NCBI RefSeq assembly: GCF_001021165.1
Contig: NZ_AZAY01000003.1
Location: 1-46,366 of the forward strand
DNA length: 46,366 nt
Source: Marinitoga sp. 1197
Lineage (GTDB): Bacteria > Thermotogota > Thermotogae > Petrotogales > Petrotogaceae
Direction: 5' to 3'
Shown here piece after piece: positions 1,279 to 43,524 of the stretch; the first letter of the stretch is position 1; every line of letters begins with the position of its first letter. The notes beneath the pieces were generated by a model that had not been told where the DNA came from, ran no database searches, and saw only the letters and a program-made list of their open reading frames with translations. Made by a program: the position numbers and the translations under genes.

Positions 1279-1296
1279 TATGTAGTATAATTAAAA

Positions 1297-1328
1297 AAAG
1301 TCTATCGAGGATACACTCGGTAGACTTT
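1297..1328 (+). terminator. Hairpin terminator between the first two genes
   Basis: Arms 1297-1309 and 1316-1328 pair over 13 bp (AAAGTCTATCGAG with CTCGGTAGACTTT, one G-T pair) around a 6-base loop. An A-run precedes it, and only TTT followed by GATTATTT comes after. The T-tract is weak, so it may be partial. The next gene starts at 1353 without a clear promoter, which fits read-through. Confidence 0.65.
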
Positions 1329-1352
1329 GATTATTTGAGGAGTTGAAAATAC

Positions 1353-2351: not shown

Positions 2352-2355
2352 AATA

Positions 2356-3765: not shown

Positions 3766-3775
3766 AGGTGGTTAT

Positions 3776-13617: not shown

Positions 13618-16600
13618 ATGAAAAAAGTTTTATTATTATTTGTTATATTGATTATTATGCATTCTTTGATATTTTCAAAAGGTTTCTTTTCGATTAAATC
13701 TGACACTGAATATAGTTTTTTAAATGAAAAAAGTTTTACGGAAAATTTAAATAGCTTATTAAAAGCAGAATTAGGATTAAAATTTTGGAATAACTTATTT
13801 ATATATAGTGGTGCACAAATTGAGTATTATCCTCAACTATTAAATCATTCAGAATATATTGGATTAGAATATAGGGTTAAAATACCATATATAGATTATA
13901 TTACTTTCAGATTGTCAGGAGGAGTTTCTAATCTAAATATTACTAATTTTAATGTTGATAATTTGTATGGTATTTTTTCTGCTGGATTAAATAAATATAT
14001 AATTAATAATTTAAATATTTTTCTAATGGGAAAAGCAAAATATATGATTTCTTCCAGTGGGAATAATTTAGATCTCCTAATAAGTGGTGGATTGGAATTT
14101 GAACTTGGTAAAACCCAATATTCTAAAAAAGTTCAAATTGAATTAAAAGATGAATATCTAAGAAGAACATCATCATCTGACTATTATCTAAAAGTAAATA
14201 GCATAAAAATTCTAGAAGATGATAAAAAATTTAATTCTGCAGAATTAGTTTTTAAGGATATAGATAACGATAAAATTTATAAATGTACATATGAGAATAA
14301 TAAAATACAATTTCAAAATGTAATGAATAAAGGGAATTACAATTTAAAATTAGAAAAGATATCTTATTCAGGTAAAAATTATAAAGTAAAGAATAATGTT
14401 ATACTAAGTATTAAATTTCCAGCAGAAATTGCAAATATTGATATAACAATTAACAAAAAATATGTAAAAACACAAGATGATGAATTTGAAATTACATTTA
14501 ATTCTCAAGTCAAAGATTATGTTGGAAACATTTTTACCAATGATGAAGTATATGAGTATTTCGATAATATTGAATCAAAATTAGATCTTGTTGACTTTCA
14601 GCCTATGTTCAAAACATTAAATAATCCTGAAAAGATTTCTTATGTTATTGAAAATAATAAAATTGTTCTAAAAAATTTGACTGTTCCTGGAACTTATACT
14701 TTTAATCTTACTGTTCATAATGAAAAAAGAAAGTTTAGTATATTAATAAAACCGTCATTTGAAAAATTATCTTATGAAATAAATGATGACATTAAATTAG
14801 GTGTAAAGGAAATTTCAAATGTCATCTTGAGAGTTAAAGACAAATATAATACTTTTTCACCATTAAGAGTTGAATTTGATAACGGGATTATATTTGAAAA
14901 TGGAAAATTAATATTAAACAAAGAATTAACATCAATAGGTGAATACAGTTTTAAAGTAACAAAAATTGATAATTATGATATTGATAAAGATTTATATATA
15001 ACAATTTTCATCAAGAAACTTTCAAAAATAAAAGATGTAAATATAAATTTTGAAAAAAGTGAATATATAGTTTCTAATCAAATTCAATTAAATCTAAATT
15101 CTATTAATATAGAAGATGTTTATGGTAACAAGTTAACAATTGATAATGGAAAAATAAAAATTATTGGTAATAACGGAAATGAAATAAACGACAGTGGGAG
15201 AAACGAGTTAAAAATTACATTAAAAAATAACGAAACTTTAGACAATATCTTAGTCTCTCCAGAAATAGATAATCTAAATAAAACATATTTTGATATTTCT
15301 CAAACTAAATCTGGAAATTATACATTTTTACTTATATTTAAACTTAATGAAGATATATTTAATAAAGAAATAAATCTTTCTTTTTTACCTGATAAAGTAG
15401 CAAAAGCTGATTTTAATATAGAAGTTCAAAAATATTATAAAGCAGATGAAGAAAAATCAGCTACTTTAACTATAAACTTGAAAGACAAGTATGGTAATAG
15501 CGTATTAACAGGACAAAATGAAGAGAACTTGAAATTTGGAGGGAACATAACAAATATTAAAAAGAAAAGAATTAGCGATTCTCAATATAAAATAAATTTT
15601 GAAAATATAACAAAAGCAGAAACATACGAATTTTATTGTAAATATAACGAATATAACTCAGATACATATACATTTTATGTTATACCATCAGAACCCAATA
15701 GTATATCATTTAACAAAAATAAAGTATATTTAAGAACAGCATATAAAGATGAAAAGGATAAAGTAGAAATTATCTATCATGTTTATGACAAATTTGGAAA
15801 CGAAATTCAATTGGAATATGATAATAACAAATTTAAATTATATGATAATTATGCCAATAAAATGAATTATGACTTTTATATAAAAACAAATATTGAAAAT
15901 AATATAGTTATTAAAAATAATAAAATGATAATCTCAGCAATATCTTCTCCAATAATTCAAAAAATTTCATTTTATGGAAATAATAAAATAGGTGAAATTG
16001 AAGTTAACTTTGTTGCGATTCCAAGAGAGATTAAGTTAGTAAGTAAACCGGAAAAAACATTTAAATATGTAAAAAATATTATTTTATCAATTGAAGATGG
16101 AAATGGCAATCCAGCTGAATTTGAAATAAACGAATTAAATATAAAAAATTCACTAAATGAAATTGATAAGAGTGCAAATATTTCAAGCTATCAAATTGAA
16201 AAAGGAAAGCTGTATATAAACTCTATTTTCCTTGGTAATGTTGGAAATAAAAAAATAGATATTAAAATTTTTGAAAACAAATTCAAAAGTAAATTATCAT
16301 ATGAACTTAATTTTAAATCAGAAAATATTATAATTGATAATATGTCTACTATTGTTATAGAAGATGTTCTTATACCTGCAGAGGGCAAAATGAAAAATAT
16401 TGAACCAGAAATTTCTGAAAATGGACGTTATGTATCTTATCTTGAATTAACTAACGAATATATAAAATTAAAAGTTTTTGATACAAACTCAAAAGAAATA
16501 TTGTCTGTTGGTGAAAGTAATAGAAAGAAAAGAAGTAGAAGTAAAAAAGAAGAACAGCACTCAATATATATGCATAAATGGTATTATGACAATGATAAAT

Positions 16601-17331
16601 TATTTTATTCAATAATAAAAGATAATAACAATTATGATTTGTATTATTATTCTGTATCAGATAACAAAAATATTCCTATTTATACAATGCCAACTCAGGA
16701 TACAATGTTTGATTTATCTCCAAATGGCAAATATATAGCTTGGTCATCTGATGGTAATCTAATGCTTGGAACATTAGATTTTCAGAATAATGAAATAGTA
16801 AATATAAAAAATATTAAATCAAAAGATAATGATAATATCGTTACAGACATTAAATGGTCAAAAGATTCAAAAAAATTAGCCTTTATTTATGGTAATGATT
16901 TATATATATATAACGCAAATAATCAAAAAATTGTAAAATTAACAGAAGATAATGATAAATATAAAAAATATATTACTTGGAATAACGAAGGCACTAAAAT
17001 AGGATATCTTTATGAATTAAATAAATTTGATTATGCATTTTCAGTCGTTTCTCTTGATGGTGAAAAAACAATACTTATAGATAATGGAGTTATCGGAGAT
17101 GTTGGAAGTCCTTTATGGTTCGGAAAAAATATATTAATATCGTTAGATTCAACTCATGGATTGAGTATATACAATATAGAAACACAAAAAATAATGCCTA
17201 TAAAATTTGAGGGAACAGAAACCGTTTCTAAATCATATTTTAAATTTTATGAGAATAAAGATGGAAAAATAAAATGTATTTTTGAAGGATTTACAGGCCA
17301 AGAAGATATACTAAAGGGGACGATTAAATGA
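13618..17331 (+). CDS. Giant exported protein: beta-rich N-terminus, bacterial Ig-like repeats, TolB-type propeller
   Basis: The 1237-aa product has a Sec signal (no lipobox) and GGAGGG upstream. Residues about 25-165 are short amphipathic strands rich in Tyr, Asn and Gly (KFWNNLFIYSGAQIEYYPQ), as in a small outer-membrane barrel. Residues about 170-900 contain successive Ig-like sandwiches with the marker DKYGN or DKFGNE, as in invasin/BIg1-type domains. Residues about 905-1237 are a WD40/TolB-like propeller with motifs PEISENGRYVSYLE, LSPNGKYIAWSSDGNL and IKWSKDSKKLAFIYGNDLYIY. The gene at 28791 is a full-length paralogue. Its stop overlaps the next start (ATGA), so it leads the transporter operon. 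Probably an outer-membrane-anchored scaffold. Confidence 0.7.
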   Translation: MKKVLLLFVILIIMHSLIFSKGFFSIKSDTEYSFLNEKSFTENLNSLLKAELGLKFWNNLFIYSGAQIEYYPQLLNHSEYIGLEYRVKIPYIDYITFRLSGGVSNLNITNFNVDNLYGIFSAGLNKYIINNLNIFLMGKAKYMISSSGNNLDLLISGGLEFELGKTQYSKKVQIELKDEYLRRTSSSDYYLKVNSIKILEDDKKFNSAELVFKDIDNDKIYKCTYENNKIQFQNVMNKGNYNLKLEKISYSGKNYKVKNNVILSIKFPAEIANIDITINKKYVKTQDDEFEITFNSQVKDYVGNIFTNDEVYEYFDNIESKLDLVDFQPMFKTLNNPEKISYVIENNKIVLKNLTVPGTYTFNLTVHNEKRKFSILIKPSFEKLSYEINDDIKLGVKEISNVILRVKDKYNTFSPLRVEFDNGIIFENGKLILNKELTSIGEYSFKVTKIDNYDIDKDLYITIFIKKLSKIKDVNINFEKSEYIVSNQIQLNLNSINIEDVYGNKLTIDNGKIKIIGNNGNEINDSGRNELKITLKNNETLDNILVSPEIDNLNKTYFDISQTKSGNYTFLLIFKLNEDIFNKEINLSFLPDKVAKADFNIEVQKYYKADEEKSATLTINLKDKYGNSVLTGQNEENLKFGGNITNIKKKRISDSQYKINFENITKAETYEFYCKYNEYNSDTYTFYVIPSEPNSISFNKNKVYLRTAYKDEKDKVEIIYHVYDKFGNEIQLEYDNNKFKLYDNYANKMNYDFYIKTNIENNIVIKNNKMIISAISSPIIQKISFYGNNKIGEIEVNFVAIPREIKLVSKPEKTFKYVKNIILSIEDGNGNPAEFEINELNIKNSLNEIDKSANISSYQIEKGKLYINSIFLGNVGNKKIDIKIFENKFKSKLSYELNFKSENIIIDNMSTIVIEDVLIPAEGKMKNIEPEISENGRYVSYLELTNEYIKLKVFDTNSKEILSVGESNRKKRSRSKKEEQHSIYMHKWYYDNDKLFYSIIKDNNNYDLYYYSVSDNKNIPIYTMPTQDTMFDLSPNGKYIAWSSDGNLMLGTLDFQNNEIVNIKNIKSKDNDNIVTDIKWSKDSKKLAFIYGNDLYIYNANNQKIVKLTEDNDKYKKYITWNNEGTKIGYLYELNKFDYAFSVVSLDGEKTILIDNGVIGDVGSPLWFGKNILISLDSTHGLSIYNIETQKIMPIKFEGTETVSKSYFKFYENKDGKIKCIFEGFTGQEDILKGTIK

Positions 17332-18293
17332 GGAAAATAAATTTAATCATATTTTTTATATTATTGATAATAATAGTCTTTCCGAATCCTCTTGAGATAC
17401 TGTATGATACAAATTATAATTCAGAAAAAGATGTTTGGAATGATTTTTTTGATCATAATTACTTGAAAATAATAAAATCAAAAAATACAGATAATGAAAC
17501 TTTGTTAGCTAAAGCCTTTAGCTATTATAAAATATATGATTTTGAAAAAAGTTTTGAACTATTAAAAAAATTAGATCAAAAAATATATTACGAGTATTTT
17601 CGTTTAAGATATGAATTAATATATGAAAATAAAAAATCAAATCTTGATATTATAAATCAAAAAATTGAAAAAATGAATATTTCAAAATCAATAAAAAACT
17701 CCGAAAAAAATTATCTTGCTTATATTCTTGGAAATTCAAGTGTAAAATCAGAATTGAAAAAAGCTTTTGAAGAATCTAAAGTTGATTTAAATAAAGAAAA
17801 AGTATATTTAATAGATGTTGAAGGATTTAATTATGCCTATTCATTATACAAATCTAAAGACTATGAAGAAGCTATGGATATACTTACACAAACAATTACA
17901 TATGATTTTAAACGAAAAACTTGGACTTTAGATTTTGACATAACAGATTTACAAAAAACAGATTTTGGGAATAAAATATTATTTTCTGTAATTTTAAGCG
18001 AATATGCACATATCTTATTAAAAAGAATAGGAATAGATGAAAGATTTTATCTAAAAGGATTGTCAGAAAAAAAAGAAATGTTAACAAATATTCAAAATTC
18101 AAATTCAAAGATGAAAATACTTATTTTAGCTCATAAGATGCTGAAAAAAAGTAATGAATTTATTATTTTTGGAATAAAAAATTTTGATGAATTAAATAAT
18201 AAGAATATAAATCTTAAACTCTTTAATATAAATAATTTACAACAGTTTATAAAAAGTAATCAAGAAATAATGGCGGAAATAAATATATTCTAA
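17328..18293 (+). CDS. Exported helical (TPR-like) protein
   Basis: The 321-aa product has an N-terminal hydrophobic signal (LIIFFILLIIIVFPNP). The rest is predicted almost wholly helical, with paired-helix patterns such as LLAKAFSYYKIYDFEKSFELLKKL and FNYAYSLYKSKDYEEAMDILTQTI, which fit tetratricopeptide repeats. The start codon overlaps the previous stop (ATGA), and the peptide-binding protein gene begins 23 bases downstream. It may be a periplasmic adaptor between the giant surface proteins and the transporter, which is inferred from position only. I recognise no named family. Confidence 0.55.
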   Translation: MRKINLIIFFILLIIIVFPNPLEILYDTNYNSEKDVWNDFFDHNYLKIIKSKNTDNETLLAKAFSYYKIYDFEKSFELLKKLDQKIYYEYFRLRYELIYENKKSNLDIINQKIEKMNISKSIKNSEKNYLAYILGNSSVKSELKKAFEESKVDLNKEKVYLIDVEGFNYAYSLYKSKDYEEAMDILTQTITYDFKRKTWTLDFDITDLQKTDFGNKILFSVILSEYAHILLKRIGIDERFYLKGLSEKKEMLTNIQNSNSKMKILILAHKMLKKSNEFIIFGIKNFDELNNKNINLKLFNINNLQQFIKSNQEIMAEINIF

Positions 18294-18316
18294 TCAAAAA
18301 TATAGGAGTTGATTTA

Positions 18317-19864
18317 ATGAAAAAAAATAAGTTTATATTATTAATTGTAATTCTAATATTATTTAATTTAAACATTAATGGGAAAATATTGAAATATGCA
18401 GAAGTAAGTAGACCTCAGTATTTCGCACCATATTTGAGTGATGATATTTTAACATTAAGAATTTTAGACCTCATATATGCCCCAATGTTTCGAATATTTA
18501 ATGTTGAAACAGCTGGAGATATCACAACTCCAGTAAAAAAAGTTTTTGCAAATGAATATAATACATCACCATATCGTACAACTGTAACATTAAAAAATAA
18601 TATAAAATGGTCTGATAATCATCGTAGAGAATTAACTTCAAAAGATATAGAATTTACATTTAATCTTATAAATTCAGATTATATAAACACATCCTATAAA
18701 TATATTACAAGTATTATTTCAAAAATTAAAACAATGTCTAAAAAGAGTTTAAGTGTCGATTATAAAGTTTATACAAAATATAAACTTTCTGTACTAGATT
18801 TCCCTATAGTTTCCTATAGAACATATTTATCTCCAAAAAATTACTTTAAAAAAGTTGAAAAGGGAGATTTGAATTTTAACGGTCCATATATATTAGAAAA
18901 AACATTCAAAAGAGACTCTATTTATTTTAAAAGAAATGTTAATTATCCTGATCCTCCAGAAATTGATGGAGTAAAAATTAGTATTTCTCCTAGTTATGAA
19001 AATATAGAAAAAGGTGTGATTTCTGGACTATATGAATTAATTACAGATGTGCCTCCAGAAAAAGCATATAGAAATTTTAAAGGAGATAAAAGGTTTAATA
19101 TCTATCCATCTTTTGAAAATAAATTTTATTATATATCGTTGAATTACAATAAAAATATTGAATTTAAAAATAAAAATTTTCGCCGTGCTTTAATATATGG
19201 AATAAATAGAGAAGGTATTTTAGATTCCGTATATTTAGGCGGCGGAAAGGTTATTAGTGGCCCATTCAATCCAACATTTTTTGGATATGATAACCAGATA
19301 ATTCCATATGAATACGATCAAAAAAAAGCTATAGAATATTTAAAAGACGTAAAATTCAAGAAAAAATTTATTTTTATCCAACCACAAGGAAATAAAGAAT
19401 TGGATAACGTAGTTTTTTCTATACAGCAAAACTTAAAAAAAATAAATATTATTCTTGATGTAAAAAAATATTCTTGGAGCGAATATCTTAATAAATTAAA
19501 AAATGGAGAATATGATATGGCTATAGTTGAGTATTCTTCTGCAAAAACTTTAACAAGTATAAGCCCTTTACTTTTACCTGATGGATATCTAAATTTTGGA
19601 AAATATAATTCAAAAGAGCAAAATGAAAAATTGTATAATTTGATAAAAGAAGTTGAAGGTCCATCATCCTTTGAGTTGGATCCAATTGTAATAACGACAA
19701 AATATAAAAATATCCATAAAATTTTACATGAAGAGATTCCATATATTTGGTTATTTACATTACAAAAAAGTCTTGTAATAAGTAAAATATATGATTTTGA
19801 CTTTATTGTACCTTCACGTCCTTTTATGAACATTGATGAGTGGAGGGTTATAAATGAAAATTAA
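18317..19864 (+). CDS. ABC transporter substrate-binding protein, family 5 (oligopeptide type)
   Basis: The 515-aa product is of normal length for SBP_bac_5 proteins of the Opp/Dpp type. A Sec signal (ILLIVILILFNLNINGK) lacks a lipobox Cys, so it is soluble or anchored by the uncleaved signal. Family features include KWSDNHRRELTSKDIEFTF, a GPYILEK strand after the first lobe, FYYISLNYNKNIEFKNKNFRRALIYGINREGIL (the conserved AL.YAIDRE region), and Gly-rich GGGKVISGPFNPTFFGY. AGGAG at 18303 supports the start. It overlaps the permease gene by 11 bases. It should deliver a peptide, or possibly an oligosaccharide as in many Thermotogota homologues, to the transporter encoded next. Confidence 0.9.
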   Translation: MKKNKFILLIVILILFNLNINGKILKYAEVSRPQYFAPYLSDDILTLRILDLIYAPMFRIFNVETAGDITTPVKKVFANEYNTSPYRTTVTLKNNIKWSDNHRRELTSKDIEFTFNLINSDYINTSYKYITSIISKIKTMSKKSLSVDYKVYTKYKLSVLDFPIVSYRTYLSPKNYFKKVEKGDLNFNGPYILEKTFKRDSIYFKRNVNYPDPPEIDGVKISISPSYENIEKGVISGLYELITDVPPEKAYRNFKGDKRFNIYPSFENKFYYISLNYNKNIEFKNKNFRRALIYGINREGILDSVYLGGGKVISGPFNPTFFGYDNQIIPYEYDQKKAIEYLKDVKFKKKFIFIQPQGNKELDNVVFSIQQNLKKINIILDVKKYSWSEYLNKLKNGEYDMAIVEYSSAKTLTSISPLLLPDGYLNFGKYNSKEQNEKLYNLIKEVEGPSSFELDPIVITTKYKNIHKILHEEIPYIWLFTLQKSLVISKIYDFDFIVPSRPFMNIDEWRVINEN

Positions 19865-20642
19865 AAAAATATTAAAAATATTATCTATCTTTTTATTATG
19901 GTTCTTAACTATGTTAATAATCCATCTTTCCAAAACAGGAAGGATAAATGGCTTTTTTTCACAGTTTATTTTAATGATTAAAAATTTTTTTAATCAAAAT
20001 TATCAAATAAGTAATTTAGAAATTATTAAAAGTTTATTAATTACACTTTCATTAATTATTGTTCCTATTATTTTTGGTGTTTTCTTTGGTGGAGTATTAG
20101 CCATTATATTAAAAAAAATAGATTTTAGTTTTTTATCCCTCTTTCCAGAATCCGTTTTATTTCTTTTTTTGTTGATAATAACTAATGGAAGATATACCCT
20201 TAATATTTCTTCTAATTTTAAGGGGATAATTATAAACATTGTTTTGATATGGGTTATTATTACTATAAGAATTTTGGGAATATCTAATCATTATATAAGA
20301 AAATCTTACTTTTTGTATGAAGAGAGTATATTTAACAGAATTACAGAGATTAGAAACATAAAAAAATTGAGGAAATATTTATATATACTCATTAGTATAA
20401 GTCTTGATTCTTTAAGTAATTTTATTTATGAAGTCCCTTTATTTATCACGTATAGTGCCATTCTTGAAATCAAAGCTCAAATTCCTGGAATAGCTTATTT
20501 GTTCTATACTTTTTTCGAAATTTCTGGAAGTTCTAATTTGATGAGAATAGGAACATTTATATTTTTAATATCAACAATATTTATAGAAATAATGTATATA
20601 ATAATAGAAAAACGTTATAAAAAAGAAGGGATTGAAATATGA
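19854..20642 (+). CDS. DppB/OppB-like ABC transporter permease (short)
   Basis: The 262-aa product has about six hydrophobic segments and belongs to the BPD_transp_1 permeases of peptide transporters. The segment EVPLFITYSAILEIKAQIPGIAYLFYTF matches the conserved DppB region where a Glu precedes an IPGLG-type motif. It is shorter than typical DppB (about 300-340 aa): the usual periplasmic region after the first segment is reduced, and the EAA loop (RITEIRNIKKLRKYLYIL) is weak. Both ends overlap neighbours (11 and 4 bases), so expression is translationally coupled to the binding protein and the fused permease-ATPase. Confidence 0.8.
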   Translation: MKIKKILKILSIFLLWFLTMLIIHLSKTGRINGFFSQFILMIKNFFNQNYQISNLEIIKSLLITLSLIIVPIIFGVFFGGVLAIILKKIDFSFLSLFPESVLFLFLLIITNGRYTLNISSNFKGIIINIVLIWVIITIRILGISNHYIRKSYFLYEESIFNRITEIRNIKKLRKYLYILISISLDSLSNFIYEVPLFITYSAILEIKAQIPGIAYLFYTFFEISGSSNLMRIGTFIFLISTIFIEIMYIIIEKRYKKEGIEI

Positions 20643-23056
20643 AAAAGAAATATATATTTTCTATCTTATTTTTATTATTTCATATAATAATTTCAATTTA
20701 TGGATCATTTTATGTAGATGGTGATGAATTCAGAAATATAAAAATAATTGAAAACGAATTAAGTCAAAACACACAACATTCCGCCAGAATTTCAAGAAAT
20801 AGTAGGAGTGAAGAATTTTCTTTGTTTGACATAATAAAAGGATCTTTATATGATTTATCTACCGTTTCTAAAAATGAAAACATATTAATACTTATAAGCG
20901 GATTAATTTCAATGATATTAGGAGGCATATTAGGAACAATAAAAAATAGTTATATTTCAAAAAAAATTATAAACGCAATATTACTTATACCTGGGCTTAT
21001 TATAGTATTATTTATATATAATTTTTATAGCGGAAATATAATTAGTTTAAGCATAGCTATAGGAATAATAGTATCTCCGAGAATTTCACTTTTATTAAGA
21101 AACAGATTAGATGAATTAAATAAAGAAGATTTTACATTTCTTTCGCTATTAAATGGAAATAGTTATATGCAAATTTTAAAAAAAGACTATTTCCCTTACA
21201 TCTTACCAATATATATTACAGCTATTGGATGGAGTATAGCAACATCTGTTATTTTTGAATCTATACTTGGATTTGCTGGACTAACTAATATATTTATACC
21301 AACTTTTGGAAGTCTATTCTATAAATTATACGACATATTTTTAATGTACAAATACTTATCAAACAATTATATTATATACACATTAATTGCAGGGACATAT
21401 GCTTTTCTGTTTTTAATATCTTTAATTTATATGTTTAATTTTATATCCCAAATTTCTGAAATAAATCTTAAAGGAAAATATGATGAATATCTTTTAGAAG
21501 TTTTTAATGGTAAATCTTATATGAAAAGTAATAAAATTCCATCTCGCATTTTTTCAATAGTAGTTAAAAATCTAAAAATATATTCCAATATAACATCAAA
21601 AAAAATAATTGAAATTGATAATATAAAATTTAATAAAGGAGATAAAGTTTTGCTAATTGGCGAATCAGGAATTGGTAAAACTGTATTTATGAATGCAATA
21701 AGTGGTTTTTTGAGTAGAAATTTTAAATATACTGGAGAAATCTTATATATAACTGATCAGGGTACCTATAACATCTTTAATCAAAAGGATAGAAAATTAT
21801 TATATAAATCTGGACTATTAGAATATATCTCTCAAAATCCTCAAAAATCTTTTAATAAATATTTTAGTTTAAATAAACAAATAAAGGATTTTGGCGCATA
21901 TAAACAAATCAAGAATTATAATTTGCCAGATTACAATGAAAACTGTAAAAATTATGTTTATGAAAAAAATGAGGGTCATTTACAAATGTGGAATTTTGAA
22001 ATTGCATTAACCAATTTTAGTCACAATCCTGGAATATTATTTTGCGATGAACCTACAGCATCATTAAACAAAATTAATGTTCTATCATATATAAAGAAAA
22101 GTTTTGATATTATAAAAGAAAACGACACATCTATACTTTTCTGGATAACACATCAAGTAGAAATGCTTATAGACCACCAAAACAATATTAGTTTCAATAA
22201 AATTTTAAAATTCGAAAGAAACGATGATAAATTTATTTACATTTTTGAAGATATGCAAGAAAATATGGCAAAAATAAAAAATGATATAAATGAATTTAAA
22301 AATAAAATGAATGATATTATGAATAAGATTTATAAAACAATTTCAAATAAAGAAGAATTTATAAAATTAAATCTCAAAAAAATAGAATTTTCTCAAAAGA
22401 AAATAAATTATAATATAAATGAAATATTAAATTTAGGAAACTTAGGAATTATTTACGGAAATAACGGTACAGGAAAAAGCACATTAGCTCGCATACTAAT
22501 AAATTACCACAATAAAAATGTGGATGGAGATATTGCATATATTATAGATAACAAAAGGTTAAATTTAAAAAGTATAAAAAATAAAGATTATATATTTCTT
22601 TTAAAATACCTTGAGTATGTTTTTCAAAATCCTGAAAAAGCATTAAATCCATATAGAAAAGTTTATGAATACCTTGAAGATCTAAAAGAAAATTTTAATA
22701 TAAACTATACAGATTTTTATAAAGAATTCAAAGAATTATATAAGGGGAAAAATTTTGAAGATATTTTAAAGAAAAGAATTTATGAATTAAGTTACGGTGA
22801 AAAAAAACGATTCCTTATATTTAAAAGCATTCTAAAAAAACCAAAATTACTGATTCTTGATGAACCTACCGCTTCTTTGGATTATAATAATATTATAATA
22901 TTATTTAGAGAAATATATAATTTTAGGGAAACTAACAATAATAATATATTACTCATTATATCTCACAGTTCATTTCTTTTTTCAAACACATTGCATTTTT
23001 CTAAAAACGATTTAAAAAAGGCAAAAATAAAAATATTTAGAGGTGAGAAAATATGA
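20639..23056 (+). CDS. Three-part fusion: DppC-like permease plus two ABC ATPase domains
   Basis: The 805-aa protein combines what are normally three Opp/Dpp subunits. Residues 1-275 are a DppC-like permease, with the first segment near the start, further membrane segments from about 80, and FESILGFAGLTNIFIPTFGS. The first ATPase has Walker A GESGIGKT (341-348), Q-loop Gln399, Walker B DE at 470-471 and His505, but the LSGGQ position reads GHLQMWNF (446-453). A charged helical linker spans about 545-585. The second ATPase has Walker A GNNGTGKS (607-614), signature LSYGEKKR (717-724), Walker B Asp741-Glu742 and His776. One composite ATP site should be consensus and the other degenerate. Both start and stop overlap neighbours by ATGA. 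Confidence 0.9.
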   Translation: MKKKYIFSILFLLFHIIISIYGSFYVDGDEFRNIKIIENELSQNTQHSARISRNSRSEEFSLFDIIKGSLYDLSTVSKNENILILISGLISMILGGILGTIKNSYISKKIINAILLIPGLIIVLFIYNFYSGNIISLSIAIGIIVSPRISLLLRNRLDELNKEDFTFLSLLNGNSYMQILKKDYFPYILPIYITAIGWSIATSVIFESILGFAGLTNIFIPTFGSLFYKLYDIFLMYKYLSNNYIIYTLIAGTYAFLFLISLIYMFNFISQISEINLKGKYDEYLLEVFNGKSYMKSNKIPSRIFSIVVKNLKIYSNITSKKIIEIDNIKFNKGDKVLLIGESGIGKTVFMNAISGFLSRNFKYTGEILYITDQGTYNIFNQKDRKLLYKSGLLEYISQNPQKSFNKYFSLNKQIKDFGAYKQIKNYNLPDYNENCKNYVYEKNEGHLQMWNFEIALTNFSHNPGILFCDEPTASLNKINVLSYIKKSFDIIKENDTSILFWITHQVEMLIDHQNNISFNKILKFERNDDKFIYIFEDMQENMAKIKNDINEFKNKMNDIMNKIYKTISNKEEFIKLNLKKIEFSQKKINYNINEILNLGNLGIIYGNNGTGKSTLARILINYHNKNVDGDIAYIIDNKRLNLKSIKNKDYIFLLKYLEYVFQNPEKALNPYRKVYEYLEDLKENFNINYTDFYKEFKELYKGKNFEDILKKRIYELSYGEKKRFLIFKSILKKPKLLILDEPTASLDYNNIIILFREIYNFRETNNNNILLIISHSSFLFSNTLHFSKNDLKKAKIKIFRGEKI

Positions 23057-26000
23057 AAAAAAAGGTTATTGTAATGGTATTTCTACTTTTAATAAGTACT
23101 TTAATGTTTTCTGAATTTGAATCATTGTTCATGACAACATTAAACAAAGATTTAAACATTTCTTTTCAATACAACCAAGATTATGGTCTTGGTGCTGAAT
23201 TAGCTATAAAAAATATATTTATATCTGCTTATCCAGGAGTGAATTTTAATGATTTTAATGTTAACCTTTTTAACTATAAAATAGATGCTGGATATAAACT
23301 TACTTTGGGAAATCTTTCAATTGTTCCTTATTTTCAAATGGAAGCATTTAAAAATTCGGTATTCAATACAATAATTTTTTTAGATTATAAAAGCTTCGGA
23401 TTTGGAATAAATACACCTATTTATACAACAAACAAGAAAAGCTTGGACTTTTTATTATATACCAAATTATATGGAACAGAATTTTTTCTTACAATTCCTT
23501 ATGATTTTGAAGCAAGTTCAATACCTTATTTCAATCTTGGTGTAAGAGCAAATTTATTTAGAATTGGCTTTTCAATAGGTTCTACATTTGAAAATACAAC
23601 ACTTTCAAATTATAATGTACAATTATCTTACTTTAATAAAAAGCTAATCCCAATTAAAATAGAACTCAATAACGTTTTATCAAAAAATAGTATATATCGA
23701 TTTAAAAAAAGCGCGGCAGTAGATATAAATATAAAAAATGAAAGTAAAAATAATAAAAATATAAAATATAAGATGCAAATTATACATAATTCAAAAGTTT
23801 TGTTCGAAAAAATATTATCTGGTGAAACTGCAAATATAACCTGGTATCCATCAGAATATGGATTATATGATATAAAATTGTATAGTTTAAATTCAGATTT
23901 CGATTTGAAATATAAAAAGATAGGATTTATTGTATATGACAACAAACCTACAATTAAAATAGAAAACTTTTCATATAAAACCGAGCAAAATGTAAGCAAA
24001 AAAATAAAAGTAATAACAGAATATAAATATTTTGATCCTTTTAAAGAATCCATTCTTTACGTTAACATAAATGGTAAATTATATAAAAAATTTCAATTAA
24101 ATAATAAAAATCAGAAAATAGAATTGGATCTACCAACTTCAGAGTTGGGTACTTTTTCATTAAATATAAAAGTCGATGATAGTTCATTAACAAAATTTTA
24201 TAAAGTAAAGAATAAAATTTCCTTCAAACCAATTAATATAAATTATTTTGAAAATAAAAATTTCAAAATTTCTCTTTCTGATTTATATAATAATCCTTTT
24301 GAATTTGAAGTTGTTGATTCAAACGGGAAAAAAATAGTTAATGAAGATATTACTTTTTATATAAAAAATAGAAAAGGAGATATTGTTTATAAATATAATA
24401 CAAAAACAGATAAAGATGGAATTGCAAGATTTTTTATCTTCACCGATTCTTTAGAAAGTGATACATACAAAATAGATGTTCAAATTCCAAATCTACAGAA
24501 TAATGAATATATATCTTTATACATAAAAAATATACCATATATCCAAATTGTAAAAAATCCATTTAAGATAAAATTTAACACAGTAAAAACTTCAGAATAT
24601 TCTATAGGCGAAGGCAGTAATGAAAAGATTCCAGGAAAAACTAAAGTAAAAACTTCAGAAAATACATTTTATTATAACTATACTATAAAAAATAAGACTA
24701 TTAACTATAGTGGCACAGATGAAACATTAAAAGTAAATATAATGGTTTATGATTTAAACGGAAAGCCTTTAAACACATGTAATGTAAATGCTAAAATATT
24801 TATCGAAGACGACCCAGACGCAGAAATTGATGATATATTGACTTATAAGAAAGAAATAAGATTAAATAATAAAGGACAAGGAGAAATAATTATTAATATA
24901 CTTGATCATGATAAATTTATAGGAAATAACTATATTTTGTTAATATCTGCTTATACATTATCAAATGAGAAAAAAATATGGGGGGAAAACACAACATATA
25001 ATTATTTAAGAATAAAGCCGATACAAACTATATTGAAAAAAGTAGAAATTAAATATCCACAAATAAGAAAATATGGGGAGAAAATGAAATTAAAATTCAT
25101 ATCAAAAGGTTATTCTTTAATTAATCAAACCTTAGAAAATATGAGATTTGTAAAAATAGAGGTTTATATGGAAGTAAACAATAAAACCTATACATATACC
25201 TTTTATACCAATCAAAAAGGTGAATATGAAATAGAAACACCCCCAATATATGATAATTCAATATATATATCTTATAGTGGTTTCCAACAATTTAGTGGTG
25301 AAGAAATAAAATTAAAAGATGAAAATATAACATTAAACATTAATAATTATACTTCTAAAAATATAGATTTTAAAAACATATATAATAGTAGTATAAAAAC
25401 AGTCATAAAGAATAATTATAGTTCTAACATCAGGATTGATGACTCTTCAGAGTATGAATTAAAATTATTTATGAATAATTATCAGATTTCATCTTTTAAA
25501 ATTGCTGGAAATAGAATATTAAATAATGATATATATAAAATATTTGATGTTAGAATACCAAACACCAAAAAGAGCAAATCAATATACCTTGAATCAAGAG
25601 TACCATTTGCTATATTTAAAGAAAATTTATTTATTGGAATCTCCACATATAAAAACTTTAAATATATATATAATGGAAAAATACCTTTTAATGAAGGCTA
25701 TTTGCTAATTAAACCGTTAAAGGGAGATTTTTCTAATTACTATATAAGCCTAAATAATGGTGATAATATTGAAGAAAAAATTGAATTCTGTGAAGACATT
25801 GTTGATTATAAAATGAATTTTGAAATTGAAGATATGTTTGGGAATTTAAGTGAAGATTTGTTTGGAGTTAAATTATTTATTAATGACTATTATATAAAAA
25901 CATTTGCCAATGAATCAAATGCAGATGTAAAAATACCATTATTCGAATGGGGAAATATTGTAAAAATCAAATTGATAAGAAACAATCATATTATATATGA

Positions 26001-27348
26001 AGAAAGTATAAAGCCCGCAAAAATTTTAACCAAAAAAACATTTGATAAACTAATTGAAGAAAAATTAATAAAAACAAAAATAATGATAGAAAATGATAAA
26101 ACAAAATCAAACATGAAATTAGAAAAAATTTATGTTGAAGGTAAAACATTTAAAGGAAATTATTATCCTATAACCGAAGTTTATTTTGATGAAAATGGCA
26201 ATATAGAGCTACCAGAAGGTACATATAATTTCTATATGGTATTTCCAATAGAAGATGGATATAAATTATCTAAAATTGGGATCAATAAAGAAGTATCAGA
26301 AAAGAACAACCGTGAATATTTTAAAATTAAAATCCCTCAATTCTTTGTAAATGTCTCAACTAAGTTCGACATAAAAGATAAAGATAGAATGATGAAAATA
26401 TATTTAGATGGTCATGAAGTATATTATGGAAATACCAGTAAAATAGCAGAATTTTTTGTTCCTCGAGGATATCACTTACTTGAATTTGAAATACCTGGCT
26501 TTAAAAAACTAAAAATTTTAAAATTATTTGAAGAAACAATAAATGGTAATCAACCGTTAAATTTCGTAAAAATATATATAAATTCAAAAACATTCGAAGG
26601 AAATAAAATTTTAAATAAACATTTTTTTACTACCTCAGATTTATCTTTGTCAAAATATGAAAAAGATATAGAACATTCCTATTTTAAAGTTGCTCAAATG
26701 TATCAAACTTATCATATTATTTCAAAAGAAAAATATAGATTAGAAATAAAATCAGAAGAATTATCATTCGATTCAAAAACAAATTCATTAATATTTAATC
26801 CAAACGGAAAAAAAGAAATAAATATTATAAAAGACTACTACTATCAAAAAATTCAAACACCTTTCAATTTAAAAGGACTTTTACTATTAAAATCTTATTA
26901 TAATGAAAGATATCCTTTAATATTAAATCTCATTTCTAACATTGAAAATAAAACACAAATACCTATAATGTATCCACAAAATATCAGAATACCACAGTTT
27001 AAAACTAAAAATAATGTATTATTAAAATTACCATATACACAAGGTATAAAAAGTGTAAATGTTAGAGCCATATATTCTATAAAAGATTATAAATATTTAA
27101 TTGAATATATTCAAAATTGCGAAGTACATTCAGAAATAATTAAAGGTGGAAAAAATATTTTATATATAAAATTAAATAATTTATACGAAAAAGTGGATTA
27201 TTATCTTGAAATAATATTTAAAAACTCAACTTCCAAAGAAATTAAACATTTTAAAATTGATGATTTTAATAATATTCAAGGAGAAAAACATTTCGATGGA
27301 ATTCTAATAGATATAGAGCAATTAAAATTAAATAATGAAGATTTTTGA
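23053..27348 (+). CDS. Giant exported protein: beta-rich N-terminus with many Ig/MG-like domains
   Basis: The 1431-aa product has a Sec signal (VIVMVFLLLISTLMFS). Residues about 20-215 consist of short amphipathic strands with Gly turns (SIVPYFQMEAFKN, SFGFGINTPIY, NLGVRANLFRIGFSIGSTF) that look like an outer-membrane barrel of about ten or more strands. The remainder is a chain of beta-sandwich modules. Several have the pattern VVDSNGKKIVNEDITFYIKN...TDKDGIARFFI, resembling macroglobulin/MG2-like or carboxypeptidase-regulatory-like domains, but no thioester motif is seen. A late region has a PEGA-like motif (VPRGYHLLEFEIPGFKKL). The start overlaps the ATPase stop, so it is translationally coupled to the transporter and is a candidate outer-envelope partner. 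Confidence 0.6.
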   Translation: MKKKVIVMVFLLLISTLMFSEFESLFMTTLNKDLNISFQYNQDYGLGAELAIKNIFISAYPGVNFNDFNVNLFNYKIDAGYKLTLGNLSIVPYFQMEAFKNSVFNTIIFLDYKSFGFGINTPIYTTNKKSLDFLLYTKLYGTEFFLTIPYDFEASSIPYFNLGVRANLFRIGFSIGSTFENTTLSNYNVQLSYFNKKLIPIKIELNNVLSKNSIYRFKKSAAVDINIKNESKNNKNIKYKMQIIHNSKVLFEKILSGETANITWYPSEYGLYDIKLYSLNSDFDLKYKKIGFIVYDNKPTIKIENFSYKTEQNVSKKIKVITEYKYFDPFKESILYVNINGKLYKKFQLNNKNQKIELDLPTSELGTFSLNIKVDDSSLTKFYKVKNKISFKPININYFENKNFKISLSDLYNNPFEFEVVDSNGKKIVNEDITFYIKNRKGDIVYKYNTKTDKDGIARFFIFTDSLESDTYKIDVQIPNLQNNEYISLYIKNIPYIQIVKNPFKIKFNTVKTSEYSIGEGSNEKIPGKTKVKTSENTFYYNYTIKNKTINYSGTDETLKVNIMVYDLNGKPLNTCNVNAKIFIEDDPDAEIDDILTYKKEIRLNNKGQGEIIINILDHDKFIGNNYILLISAYTLSNEKKIWGENTTYNYLRIKPIQTILKKVEIKYPQIRKYGEKMKLKFISKGYSLINQTLENMRFVKIEVYMEVNNKTYTYTFYTNQKGEYEIETPPIYDNSIYISYSGFQQFSGEEIKLKDENITLNINNYTSKNIDFKNIYNSSIKTVIKNNYSSNIRIDDSSEYELKLFMNNYQISSFKIAGNRILNNDIYKIFDVRIPNTKKSKSIYLESRVPFAIFKENLFIGISTYKNFKYIYNGKIPFNEGYLLIKPLKGDFSNYYISLNNGDNIEEKIEFCEDIVDYKMNFEIEDMFGNLSEDLFGVKLFINDYYIKTFANESNADVKIPLFEWGNIVKIKLIRNNHIIYEESIKPAKILTKKTFDKLIEEKLIKTKIMIENDKTKSNMKLEKIYVEGKTFKGNYYPITEVYFDENGNIELPEGTYNFYMVFPIEDGYKLSKIGINKEVSEKNNREYFKIKIPQFFVNVSTKFDIKDKDRMMKIYLDGHEVYYGNTSKIAEFFVPRGYHLLEFEIPGFKKLKILKLFEETINGNQPLNFVKIYINSKTFEGNKILNKHFFTTSDLSLSKYEKDIEHSYFKVAQMYQTYHIISKEKYRLEIKSEELSFDSKTNSLIFNPNGKKEINIIKDYYYQKIQTPFNLKGLLLLKSYYNERYPLILNLISNIENKTQIPIMYPQNIRIPQFKTKNNVLLKLPYTQGIKSVNVRAIYSIKDYKYLIEYIQNCEVHSEIIKGGKNILYIKLNNLYEKVDYYLEIIFKNSTSKEIKHFKIDDFNNIQGEKHFDGILIDIEQLKLNNEDF

Positions 27349-27393: not shown

Positions 27394-28602
27394 ATGAAAA
27401 AAATAATAATGATACTAATTTTAATAACGCTAATACTCTCAGGATGTGTAACAAATAACAACGCACCTTCAAAAGCATTAGAAGTTTATCCCATAAATTA
27501 TAGCGAAGGAATACCGTTAAAAATCACATTAAAATGGCAAGGATATGATGAAGAAGATGGGAGCAATTTGAATTATGATGTACACGTAGGAAAATGCAAA
27601 GATAATATGAGTTTAATTGAAGATCAAATAACAAAAAATGAATGTCAAGTACTTGGATTAGAACCAACCACAACATATTATTGGAAAATAGATAGTATAG
27701 ACAGTAAAGGAGCAAAGAGAGAAGGAGAAATATGGGAATTTACAACCAGAGAAAATACTCCACCAACAACACCAGAAATAATTGAACCAGAAAATGGAGG
27801 AACTAATGTAAGTTTAAATCCAACATTAAAATGGAAGTCTATTGATATTGATGGACATAAAATAACATATGACATATACATTGGAGCAGACAAAAACAGT
27901 TTAAAATTAATAGAAAAAGATTATGAAGAATCAACATATAAAATAGAAGGGTTAACGCCGATAACAGCATATTATTGGAAAATAATAGCAAAAGATGGGT
28001 ATGGTGGAATAATAGAAGGAGATGTTTGGGAATTCAAAACCAAAGAAAACACCCCACCTACAAAACCAAAAATAATAGAACCATATAATGGAGCAAAGAA
28101 TGTAAGTTTAACTCCAATATTAAAATGGAAATCAGAAGATATTGATGGACATAAAATAATATATGACATATATTTTGGGAATGACAAAAACAATTTAAAA
28201 TTAATAGAAAAAGATTATAAAGAAACAACATATAAAATAAGGAAATTAGAATTAGGAATAACATATTATTGGAAAATAATAGCAAAAGATGGGTATGGTG
28301 GAATAGCAGAAGGAGAAATATGGGAATTTACAACATCATTATTAAAATGGAAGTACAAAACAGGAGGAGACGTATTCTCTTCCCCAGCGATAGGGAGTGA
28401 CAGGACTATATATATTGGCAGTTGGGATAACTATGTATATGCAATAAACGGAGATGGAACATTAAAATTGAAGTACAAGACAGAGTGGGATGTATCTTCC
28501 TCACCAGTGATAGGAAGTGACGGGACTATATATGTTGGCAGTAGGGATTACTACTTATATGCAACAAACGAAAATAACGGTGGTTTAGCAGACACACCAT
28601 AG
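27394..28602 (+). pseudogene. Decaying FN3/PQQ-propeller lipoprotein (two blades, premature stop)
   Basis: The frame starts with lipobox LSGC (Cys18) and has three FN3-like domains (about 26-303) like its paralogues. Only two PQQ-like blades (about 317-402) follow, against eight in the complete members, which cannot close a propeller. The frame ends GGLADTP then TAG at 28600-28602, exactly where all paralogues have TGG (Trp of WPMFHANPQHTG). The ancestral frame continues as PMFHANPQHTGNVNDN to TAA at 28651-28653. The signs are a nonsense change plus loss of six blades. The 5' part remains intact and could still yield a surface FN3 lipoprotein. Its 5' end is almost identical to that of the gene at 41093. 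Confidence 0.75.
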
Positions 28603-28790: not shown

Positions 28791-31700
28791 ATGAAAAATA
28801 TAATATTTATAATAATGCTCATAACCCTTTCTATATTAACACAAGCAAATTTTATAGCAAAAATTAATACATCTGCTAATTTTGAAACTAATTATAAAAA
28901 TATTTCATTTGATGATTTCAACAACTATTTCGGAATGAGTATAGGATTTAGTCCTATATCAAATAATTATATTATTGGCGAAGCTAAATTAAAAGATACC
29001 AAAGACTTTTCCCTAAATATAAAACTTAAAAATTATGATTTAATTCCTTGGGGTCCTTGGTTTATAAATATCGGGGCAGACGATATATTAAAATCACGTG
29101 ATTTGTTTGGTGGAATTGGAAAAGAATTTCACATTAATCTTTTTGAGAAAGACTTTTTTAGATTGAATATTATACCAACAATTTTATATAAAAAAAATTC
29201 AGGATTTAATATAAGTATTAGTGCTATGGCAGAAATAGGTCTTTTGGACAAAAAAGAATATATTGAAAATATAAATTTTTCAAATTTGAAAAGTTTATAT
29301 TCAGATAAAGAAACAACAAAATTTTATTGTGACCACGTACAAATACAAAGTAATATGAAAAAATATGATGGAGCAAATCATGATATAGTTTTCTATTTTG
29401 AAGACACTAAAACGTCTAAAGAGTATAAGGCAAAATATTCAAATTCTTACGTAATATTCGATGAAGTAATAAAAGAAACAACAAAATTAAAATTAAAAAA
29501 AATAGAAATGGATAATAAATTTTTTACACTGACTTCAAGAAAAACTATAAGTATCACATTTTATATAATAAAGAAAATAGATAATGTAAAAATAGAATTT
29601 AATAAAAACAAATTTATTATAAATGAATCTGAAGATGTGAATTTTAATTATGATATTGAAATAGATAATGAAAAAATAGAAGATTTAGAAGCATTTCAGA
29701 AATCACTTAACATAAAATGTGAATTCACAATTTATAAAAATAATGGTAATAAATCAGAAAAAATAAAAAACGAAAAAACAAACACTTCAAACCTAACTAT
29801 AAAAGGTTTATATTTTTCCAAATTTGGTAATTATATTATTAAAGTAAAGATATACAAAGAAAATAAAATACAAAATGAAAAAAAAGATCAAATATCGAAT
29901 GAAATCGAAAAACAAATATTAGATGAAAAAGATATACAAGTAATAGTACAACCTGAATTTTCTAAAATAAATATTGAAAGCAAAGATCCTTTTTTAGTCG
30001 AAGATAATAAAATTAAAGATTTAAATATAAAATTCAGAACTAAACAAAACAATGAATATATACCTCAGAAAATAAAATTTGAAAATGGAATAAAATATAA
30101 TGAAAATATTCTATATATACCAAATATACCAAGTTCAAATAATGCAACAATAATAAAGTTAATACCAGTAAAAATAGATAACTATGAAATAAATCAAGAA
30201 TTGAAACAAAACCTTTCAGATGAAATAAAAATAAAAAAGATAACAACTCAAACACAAATTTTCATTGAACCTAAAACTTCATCATTTAAGTCAGCAACAA
30301 CATTGATTATACCTATAAAACAATTTAAAATAAATGGTATTGAAAATGATTTCAATTATCTACCTTTAGATATATACGCAAATAATAAGAAAATATTAGA
30401 TAATGATAAAAAACTTCAAGAGAAAAATATAATCATAAAAAATACAGAAAATTATTTTACACATGGGAAAAATGAAATTTATATAAAACTAAATAATATT
30501 GAGAGTAATCATTTTTTTATAGAGATTGTTCCAAGTAAAATATCAAAAATTTATTTTTACTCCCAATATACAGAAATAAAAGAAAATGAAAAAACAAAAA
30601 TTTATTATAAAATATTCGATAAAGCTGATATAGAATTAAAACATTCAGAAGAAAATTTAAAATTCAAATCAAAAGGCTTAAAAATCATCAACAGAACAGA
30701 AAAATATATAGAAGTTATCCCTGAAAAAAGCCATTCTTTTGGAGAAATAATGGCTACATATGAAAATCTTGAATTGGGAAATTGGGTTATAAAAATAAAC
30801 CAAAAAGAAACTCTTGTGTCCGATTTCAAATTATCAACTAAAACACAATTAAGCACTCCTACAAAATCAGAAGAAATTTCTTCAACTATTCAAAAAAAAG
30901 AAGAAATAATTACATCACCTGAAACGTCAAAGAAAACCTCAGAAGCAACATCAATAAAAATAAAACTTGTAAGAAAAGTATATGAAATAGGAAAGACTAA
31001 TATTGAAATAGAATCTTCTTATATTTCAGATAAATTAGATTTATTTATTAATGATCAGAAAATTCCATATAAAATCTCGGGCAATCGTATAATTGCTAAA
31101 TATGATCAGAAAAGATTTGGAATTTATAAAGTGAATCTAAAATATAATAATATAGAAAGCAATAATGAATATTTCTTTATAATCCCCTCATCTCCTGAAT
31201 ACATAAAATTATATCCAGAAAAAACAGAAATTGAAAATAAGGAAACATTAAATTTTGAAATTTTTGACAAATTTAATAATAGAATCTATGTAAAAGAAAT
31301 AAATAAAAATACTATAAAAACCACATTTAATGACGAAATAAAATTTAAGACTAGTGGTTTGAAATTAGAGTTAACCGAAAATAATATTATATTAATACCA
31401 TCAGAAGAAGCCACAATGGTGAAAGTACAAATATTCTATAAAAACAAAAAATTAAAAGAGTTGAATATGAAAATAATACAGAAAAATATAATTAAAAAAA
31501 CATTAGAACACACCAAATCAGAAAATATTAAACAAACGCAAAATGCAACTAAAACTACTATTGAAAATTATTCAATTAATGGTAAAAATTCAGAAAATCA
31601 ATCTGATAAAGTTATTACTTCAACAAATATTAAACCAACAATAAAAGCAACCAAAACCAATTTAAAAAATCAATCTGATAAAAGCGTAACTCCAATAAAA

Positions 31701-32693
31701 TTAGAAATTTCAAAAATCAAAAATGTAGAATTGAATATTTCAAAAATATTGATTGAAGCAGATACTCGGGAAAAGATCATCGAACCAAAAATTTCTCCAG
31801 ACGGAAAACATATTGTATATATTAGATTATCAAACGAGAATATCTCATTAAACATTTATGAAATAAATAAAAATAAGAGTGTTAAAGTTATTGGAACAAC
31901 TTCTATAAGGAAAAGGAAAGATCAAAAATATTCTATATATCAGTTTTATTGGTTAAATAATAAGGAGATTCTATACACAATGATAAAAGATAATTCATAT
32001 AATATATATTTATATAATCTTCAAAACAAAACAAATTATATACTTATGGAATCAGAAAATAACGAAACAGATTTTGATATATTTGGAAATAACATAGCTT
32101 GGATATCAAATGCTGGACTTTACTATGGAAAAATTGATTTAACCCTTAAAAAAATAAGTAAGGTAAAAGAAATATTCCCACTTTCAACAGATAAACCTAT
32201 AACCGAAATAAAATTTATAACTGAAAATCTAATAACATACATATATAATAACGATATTTATGTATATTCCATAGCAGATAACAAAGTAAAAAAATATACA
32301 AATTCATCAGAACTAATTAAGAACCAGATAAATTTTGTTAAAGACAAAATAATATATATATCTAACGAAAAAAATAAAGATTCAACATTGAATATTCTGG
32401 ATATAAATACAGAAGAAAACTCAAGAGTTTTGAATAATTTAATTGACAAAGACTTTCATATAGCAGCAGTTAATAATTTCTTAATATTAAAATTATCTGG
32501 TTCGGAAAAATATATATTATATGACCTTGAAAACAAAATTTATAAACAAATAAAAATTTCTGGTATTGAAGCAATATCATTAAATAATTTCGGATTAATA
32601 ATGAAAAATAAATACGAATATATAACATATTTTGAAGGATTTAATGGAAAAGAAAATATTTTTGAAGGAAATATTATAATAAGAGGTGAATAA
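28791..32693 (+). CDS. Giant exported protein, paralogue of 13618: beta-rich, Ig-like, TolB-type propeller
   Basis: The 1300-aa product has a Sec signal (IIFIIMLITLSILTQA) and AAGGAGA upstream. Its order matches the gene at 13618: an N-terminal beta-rich part (about 20-165), Ig-like sandwiches with DKFNNR-type markers, and a C-terminal TolB-like propeller beginning EPKISPDGKHIVYIRLSNE. The shared end FEGFNGKENIFEG (FEGFTGQEDILKG in the paralogue) confirms homology. It differs by two low-complexity linkers rich in Thr, Ser and Lys (about 680-725 and 900-970) containing repeated NQSDK. The propeller blades are more degenerate than in the paralogue. It ends one base before the next start. Confidence 0.7.
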   Translation: MKNIIFIIMLITLSILTQANFIAKINTSANFETNYKNISFDDFNNYFGMSIGFSPISNNYIIGEAKLKDTKDFSLNIKLKNYDLIPWGPWFINIGADDILKSRDLFGGIGKEFHINLFEKDFFRLNIIPTILYKKNSGFNISISAMAEIGLLDKKEYIENINFSNLKSLYSDKETTKFYCDHVQIQSNMKKYDGANHDIVFYFEDTKTSKEYKAKYSNSYVIFDEVIKETTKLKLKKIEMDNKFFTLTSRKTISITFYIIKKIDNVKIEFNKNKFIINESEDVNFNYDIEIDNEKIEDLEAFQKSLNIKCEFTIYKNNGNKSEKIKNEKTNTSNLTIKGLYFSKFGNYIIKVKIYKENKIQNEKKDQISNEIEKQILDEKDIQVIVQPEFSKINIESKDPFLVEDNKIKDLNIKFRTKQNNEYIPQKIKFENGIKYNENILYIPNIPSSNNATIIKLIPVKIDNYEINQELKQNLSDEIKIKKITTQTQIFIEPKTSSFKSATTLIIPIKQFKINGIENDFNYLPLDIYANNKKILDNDKKLQEKNIIIKNTENYFTHGKNEIYIKLNNIESNHFFIEIVPSKISKIYFYSQYTEIKENEKTKIYYKIFDKADIELKHSEENLKFKSKGLKIINRTEKYIEVIPEKSHSFGEIMATYENLELGNWVIKINQKETLVSDFKLSTKTQLSTPTKSEEISSTIQKKEEIITSPETSKKTSEATSIKIKLVRKVYEIGKTNIEIESSYISDKLDLFINDQKIPYKISGNRIIAKYDQKRFGIYKVNLKYNNIESNNEYFFIIPSSPEYIKLYPEKTEIENKETLNFEIFDKFNNRIYVKEINKNTIKTTFNDEIKFKTSGLKLELTENNIILIPSEEATMVKVQIFYKNKKLKELNMKIIQKNIIKKTLEHTKSENIKQTQNATKTTIENYSINGKNSENQSDKVITSTNIKPTIKATKTNLKNQSDKSVTPIKLEISKIKNVELNISKILIEADTREKIIEPKISPDGKHIVYIRLSNENISLNIYEINKNKSVKVIGTTSIRKRKDQKYSIYQFYWLNNKEILYTMIKDNSYNIYLYNLQNKTNYILMESENNETDFDIFGNNIAWISNAGLYYGKIDLTLKKISKVKEIFPLSTDKPITEIKFITENLITYIYNNDIYVYSIADNKVKKYTNSSELIKNQINFVKDKIIYISNEKNKDSTLNILDINTEENSRVLNNLIDKDFHIAAVNNFLILKLSGSEKYILYDLENKIYKQIKISGIEAISLNNFGLIMKNKYEYITYFEGFNGKENIFEGNIIIRGE

Positions 32694-32694
32694 A

Positions 32695-40943: not shown

Positions 40944-41092
40944 AACTTTACACAAATAAAAAGAATTACTTTCGATTATCTAATACAACAACATTGAAAC
41001 CCTTATTAAAAATAGCGTGAAAGTATTTTAAACAATATATTTTCAGAATTTTAGAATATAGAAAACTAATTAAAAAAATGGAGGTGGGGAAA
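40944..41092. other. Spacer before the 41093 gene
   Basis: The first 20 or so bases are the duplicated flank described for 40848-40943. The remainder is AT-rich, without a convincing -35/-10 pair. GGAGGTGGGG at 41080-41089 is the ribosome site of the next gene. Confidence 0.6.
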
Positions 41093-43503: not shown

Positions 43504-43524
43504 AATATTTGAGAGGTGAATAAA

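Follow-up and report, generated by a model that had tools for sequence, protein, structure and literature searches.

Can a type I ABC importer run on one good ATP site? The window analyzed here (the whole stretch of 46,366 nucleotides) carries a gene that offers a natural test of this question, because the residues acting in cis are intact at both of its putative ATP sites, with deviations confined to the trans elements of a single ATPase. An initial annotation had described its product as a permease and two ATPases in one 805-aa chain, and the uninterrupted reading frame, two ABC_tran stretches recognized by Pfam (NBD1 and NBD2) and the profile assignments given below bear this out. We consider the chain to be part of a reduced, fused type I ABC importer of the Opp/Dpp lineage, the cycle of which is probably driven mainly by one ATP site. 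The fused gene overlaps both the permease gene upstream and the giant gene downstream by 4 bases, and the genes for the solute-binding protein (SBP) and the permease overlap by 11 bases, which places the fused gene in a tight operon (Table 1).

Table 1. Genes of the conserved cluster and motifs of the fused chain, in window coordinates.
Feature	Position	Strand	Basis or remark
Secreted protein, 1237 aa, Ig-like region then PD40/WD40-like propeller	13618..17331	+	Pfam DPPIV_N/PD40; first gene of conserved cluster
Secreted TPR-like protein, 321 aa, N-terminal signal sequence	17328..18293	+	G100 homologue, BLAST E 3e-9
Periplasmic SBP, SBP_bac_5 family (Opp/Dpp/Nik type), 515 aa	18317..19864	+	PF00496 E 1.2e-46
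Short membrane protein in DppB position, 262 aa	19854..20642	+	Hydrophobic segments
Fused DppC-DppD-DppF-like chain, 805 aa	20639..23056	+	ORF, Pfam, D and F HMMs, structure models
EAA-type coupling loop of permease domain (residues 163-191, EDFTFLSLLNG...FPYILP)	21125..21211	+	Sequence inspection; BLAST alignment to DppC proteins
NBD1 Walker A GESGIGKT (residues 341-348)	21659..21682	+	Sequence, pair alignment
Degenerate NBD1 signature KNEGH (residues 443-447), aligned with LSGGM	21965..21979	+	HMM alignment; G100 counterpart VSDGV
NBD1 Walker B plus D-loop (residues 466-477), with catalytic Glu471 but no D-loop Asp (ASLN)	22034..22069	+	
NBD1 switch His505	22151..22153	+	Invariant in pair alignment with G100 homologue
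NBD2 Walker A GNNGTGKST (residues 607-615)	22457..22483	+	Sequence, pair alignment
NBD2 signature LSYGE (residues 717-721)	22787..22801	+	Pair alignment, HMM alignment
NBD2 Walker B plus D-loop (residues 737-748), with both Glu742 and Asp748 (ASLD)	22847..22882	+	
NBD2 switch His776	22964..22966	+	Invariant in pair alignment with G100 homologue
Secreted protein, 1431 aa, beta-rich N-terminus, Ig-like domains	23053..27348	+	Weak Big_1/CarboxypepD_reg Pfam matches

BLAST aligns the N-terminal domain of the chain with DppC permeases (best E 3e-11), and the BPD_transp_1 match of this domain at residues 105-264 is weak, falling below the cut-off (20.7 versus 26.4 bits). To the two ATPases we applied D-subunit and F-subunit HMMs built from single-chain Dpp-type ATPases at loci of the same phylum. 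NBD1 scored higher with the D model (74.8 bits, versus 54.0 bits for F) and NBD2 with the F model (94.9 bits, versus 76.4 bits for D), and the same preferences were repeated in the only fused homologue found, in a genome that we call G100. Together with the DppC-like N-terminus, these preferences indicate the chain order C-D-F. The oligo_HPY C-terminal domain, which is expected in the E. coli Dpp ATPases and was detected by Pfam in the D and F control ATPases of the same phylum, was absent after both ATPases in the window chain and in its G100 homologue. We therefore speak of the Opp/Dpp lineage, and of a stripped-down derivative rather than a standard member. The initial annotation took separate C, D and F subunits as the norm for this family, but D and F are not separate in every case: in OppD and DppD of Mycobacterium tuberculosis (Mtb), the structures of which are solved, D and F are fused in one chain.

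Within NBD1, the alignment recovered all of the elements that had been reported as retained, namely Walker A, the Q-loop (Q399), the Walker B DEP (residues 470-472) and the switch His. The signature is indeed degenerate, but the motif originally proposed for it, GHLQMWNF, was read three residues out of register: it begins 3 residues downstream of the C-loop start, covering the last of the C-loop and the helix that follows. The segment lSGGmrQR of an HMM built on 48 Dpp-type ATPases with canonical motifs aligns with KNEGHLQM (from K443) in the window and with VSDGVLQV in G100, and in both AlphaFold models the signature helix begins at E445 in NBD1 and at Y719 in NBD2, so that KNEGH is the C-loop. 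Relative to the canonical motif, L is replaced by K, S by N, the first G by E and Q/M by H, while the second G and the helix Gln are retained. We also found a second deviation that had gone unmentioned, the loss of the D-loop Asp, which is replaced at residue 477 (N477) to give ASLN instead of ASLD. The comparison set comprised 80 unique ATPases (single chains, 290-400 aa); it was drawn from loci fetched by similarity to the query and is thus biased towards the Dpp type. Of these, 79 combine xSGG[MQE] with the D-loop Asp, and none lacks that Asp.

NBD2 has its Q-loop at Q663 and its Walker B DEP at residues 741-743. Its LSYGEKKR, previously called intact, is near-canonical rather than perfect, with Tyr in place of a Gly. 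In ABC dimers an ATP molecule is sandwiched at each site by the Walker A of one ATPase and the signature of its partner, and the D-loop likewise acts in trans. Walker A, the Q-loop, the catalytic Glu and the switch His are retained in both ATPases of the fused chain; the differences lie in the signature (KNEGH versus LSYGE) and the D-loop (ASLN versus ASLD). Judged by these motifs, the site that would be composed of NBD1 Walker A, E471 and H505 with LSYGE and D748 of NBD2 is consensus, and the site that would be composed of NBD2 Walker A, E742 and H776 with KNEGH and N477 of NBD1 is degenerate in its trans half only. At the level of motif states this agrees with the earlier expectation of one fully consensus composite site, made of the Walker A, Walker B and His of ATPase 1 with the signature, to which we add the D-loop, of ATPase 2. 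With normal residues in cis and degenerate ones in trans, the second site should bind ATP yet hydrolyze it slowly or not at all.

The AlphaFold models of the fused chain rest on thin alignments and reach a modest pTM of 0.51-0.55 (0.51 for the model used in the fit described here). The first was based on a chimeric alignment; the second is preferred. Both ATPases of the preferred model superpose colinearly on Mtb DppD in its ATP-bound state (8wdb_D), with a Z of 25.0 and 3.6 A across 445 residues, and the fused ATPase chain of Mtb was the top structural match over the two window ATPases. This modeled fit is in line with an intramolecular dimer of the Mtb DppD type.

We also asked how widely the system occurs. 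With profiles of the fused chain and of the short permease, it was found in 2 of 103 genomes of the phylum, those being the window genome and G100, a genome of another family in the same class that encodes a fused chain of 768 aa with 25-28% identity. A 7.3-kb contig of G100 (C59) carries, in colinear order, a propeller protein (C-terminal end), a TPR-like protein, an SBP, a short permease, the fused chain and a secreted protein, again with 4-base gene overlaps. BLAST E-values between the two operons are 4e-4 for the propeller protein, 3e-9 for the TPR-like protein, 1e-68 for the SBP, 8e-14 for the short permease and 8e-65 for the fused chain. The propeller match pairs the last 100 C-terminal residues of the 1237-aa protein with the end of the ORF that precedes the TPR-like gene in G100 (shuffle z 6.0). 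The positional counterpart of the 1431-aa protein opens with the same 4-base overlap, and its similarity to that protein is not significant (shuffle z 1.9). Neither the 321-aa TPR-like protein nor the 262-aa protein had a Pfam match. The profile of the 262-aa permease gave strong matches only in its own genome and in G100, and also weakly matched the C-terminal part of permease-sized frames of 325-369 aa (E about 2e-4). Contamination of G100 by this contig was considered and rejected, as both its GC content (37.0%, versus 37.3-43.4% in the other sampled G100 contigs) and its tetranucleotide profile (correlation 0.954, inside the range of those contigs) fit its genome. We regard the architecture as real, conserved and, within this phylum, rare. 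No orthologue turned up in the other six genomes searched in its genus (one of seven, counting its own), no further homologues were detected among the 103 phylum genomes with either profile, none was present among plasmids at 80% coverage or among viral contigs, and a scan of genome contigs with exact peptide patterns of one sequence returned distant ATPases only.

The G100 homologue also bears on how the NBD1 deviations are to be read. Its NBD1 has the signature VSDGV and the D-loop ASLS, so a canonical homologue, which would have spoken for a defect of a single strain, was not encountered; degeneracy recurs in the sole homologue found, in a clade of two sequences. By its motifs the degeneracy in G100 is milder, with Ser and the second Gly surviving in the signature, and "dead" is consequently too strong a word for the family. 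VSDGV is about as far from LSGGQ as the LSYG of NBD2, and the asymmetry in G100 may accordingly be weak.

Taking these results together, we propose the following cycle. In an outer-membraned cell, the periplasmic SBP would hand its ligand to a permease pair in which the short 262-aa protein joins the N-terminal domain of the fused chain, and the two ATPases of that chain would form one intramolecular head-to-tail dimer. The site with NBD1 Walker A, Walker B and His and with the NBD2 signature and D-loop would be expected to hydrolyze ATP, the reciprocal site would bind ATP with slow or absent hydrolysis, and transport would be powered mainly by the former. The presence of an SBP and of a coupling loop leads us to infer inward transport; the dimer geometry and the hydrolysis at a single site are likewise predictions. 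A bolder version, which we offer tentatively and think rather unlikely to hold in full, is that this is a new family of fused C-D-F type I importers in which the trans elements of the D-type ATPase alone are degenerate, serving under single-site drive as a dedicated envelope-spanning uptake system that is operon-coupled to giant surface proteins.

Alternatively, the importer may be symmetric, with both sites hydrolyzing ATP and the odd C- and D-loops of NBD1 being compatible substitutions tolerated in a fast-evolving, AT-rich lineage. We give this possibility appreciable weight while still judging it improbable. The second Gly and the helix Gln are retained in NBD1, G100 keeps Ser-x-Gly, the catalytic Glu and His are intact at both sites, and the NBD2 signature is itself LSYG. 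In E. coli DppBCDF without DppA an ATP analogue was seen in DppF only, whereas with DppA both sites hydrolyze and each single Glu mutant keeps clear ATPase activity (PMC12136057); the equivalence or functional asymmetry of two sites is thus not readable from sequence alone. What tips the balance towards single-site drive is that the deviations concentrate in one ATPase, in both of its trans elements and in both homologues, whereas 79 of the 80 comparators are canonical. It is very improbable that NBD1 is instead a pseudo-ATPase heading for loss or an artefact of assembly at 21960-22000. Presence in one of seven genomes of the genus and the GC content of the ABC gene block (22%, versus 27-30% in most fetched stretches) would fit such decay, but the frame is open, all other NBD1 motifs are intact, and NBD1 is about as similar to its homologue (28.4% identity) as are the permease domain (25.3%) and NBD2 (31.4%), which argues that it is not decaying. 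The G100 chain already contradicts this explanation, and rules out both a single-strain defect and the sequencing error that had been raised for this interval, since its NBD1 has the same helix pattern (GxLQxxNF) and the same 3-residue insertion between signature helix and Walker B ("NP...DEP"). The gene looks less like a broken one than like a real but rare variant of a known pump.

The SBP raises a different alternative. Its Pfam match is above the cut-off, as is that of the G100 SBP (E 1.8e-41), and no lipobox Cys was seen in its 515 residues. Its match to DppA extends to residue 405 and falls just short of the dipeptide ligand loop, where residues 399-410 contain EYSSAK (EYSAAR in G100, an EYSxA pattern). 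When the alignment was extended by eye, an Ala stood opposite the DppA Asp that holds the amino group of the peptide. These features, together with the EYSxA pattern of G100, suggest that the ligand may be something other than an ordinary dipeptide. They are also compatible with the view that the ABC module and its SBP-like protein are an envelope machine acting on the giant secreted and propeller proteins of the operon, for example in sensing, assembly or export of surface layer components, as is the coupling of the module, through overlapping genes, to propeller, TPR-like and giant secreted proteins in two distant genomes. However, an SBP_bac_5 protein together with a type I coupling loop in the permease is normally a mark of import, and the similarity of the giant proteins between the two operons is not significant. 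We therefore regard a role other than nutrient import as unlikely, and retain the single-site importer as the preferred reading.

Among known systems, the closest in layout are DppABCD and OppABCD of Mtb (PDB 8wdb, 8wd9, 8j5q), which are SBP-dependent and carry both ATPases in one chain, D then F, as in the window. They differ in that permease C is a separate chain and the signatures are canonical in the published alignments (LSGGE/FSGGQ in OppD, LSGGM/LSGGQ in DppD), whereas here C is fused to D-F and NBD1 is degenerate. E. coli DppABCDF has the same subunit types, and the window SBP belongs to the DppA family, but the E. coli system consists of five separate chains with intact motifs in both ATPases. 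Heterodimeric exporters such as TM287/288, BmrCD, TAP and CFTR also combine one consensus and one degenerate composite site, in an exporter rather than an importer-type fold. In these exporters the degenerate site has usually lost the catalytic Glu or His as well; both residues are kept at the second site of the window chain. The initial annotation called such asymmetry unusual for peptide importers, which is reasonable for the Opp/Dpp branch but does not extend to importers generally: RbsA and NupO of B. subtilis, from sugar and nucleoside importers, each have two ATPases in one chain and one degenerate site (PMC11466899). They belong to another importer class, and their second Walker A lacks the Lys, unlike the window chain, in which all cis residues are kept and the trans elements of NBD1 deviate. 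The authors of that study ask whether fusion and degeneration of ATPases are linked (PMC11466899). Our results bear on whether ATPase fusion goes with loss of one site, as the Dpp-lineage fusion described here follows the trend of RbsA and NupO while the Mtb D-F fusions do not.

The surroundings of the operon are also distinctive. The ABC block (17328-23056) has a GC content of 22%, compared with 23.5-30% in the stretches fetched from the same genome, a hint that the block is of foreign origin or evolves rapidly. The giant proteins at 13618-17331 and 28791-32693 flank the ABC operon and are paralogous (28% identity over the C-terminal half), both having Ig-like regions and PD40-like propeller ends. 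Their relatives in the family are fragments only. One locus of a same-genus genome (L128:6991-8304) encodes, in an unrelated gene context, a 437-aa lipoprotein with only the Ig-like part of the first of the two. A secreted caspase-like (Peptidase_C14) protein is encoded at 3755-5551 and adjoins small lipoprotein-like or secreted proteins at 634-3765. An island of lipoprotein-like or membrane-anchored proteins with fn3 domains (5584-10764, 27394-28602, 32686-34683, 34741-40716, 41078-43468 and 43516-46293) also contains PQQ-type propeller repeats (SSPAIGADGTIYVGS...YAINPDGSLKWKF) in many near-identical copies, which suggests duplication and recombination in the recent past.
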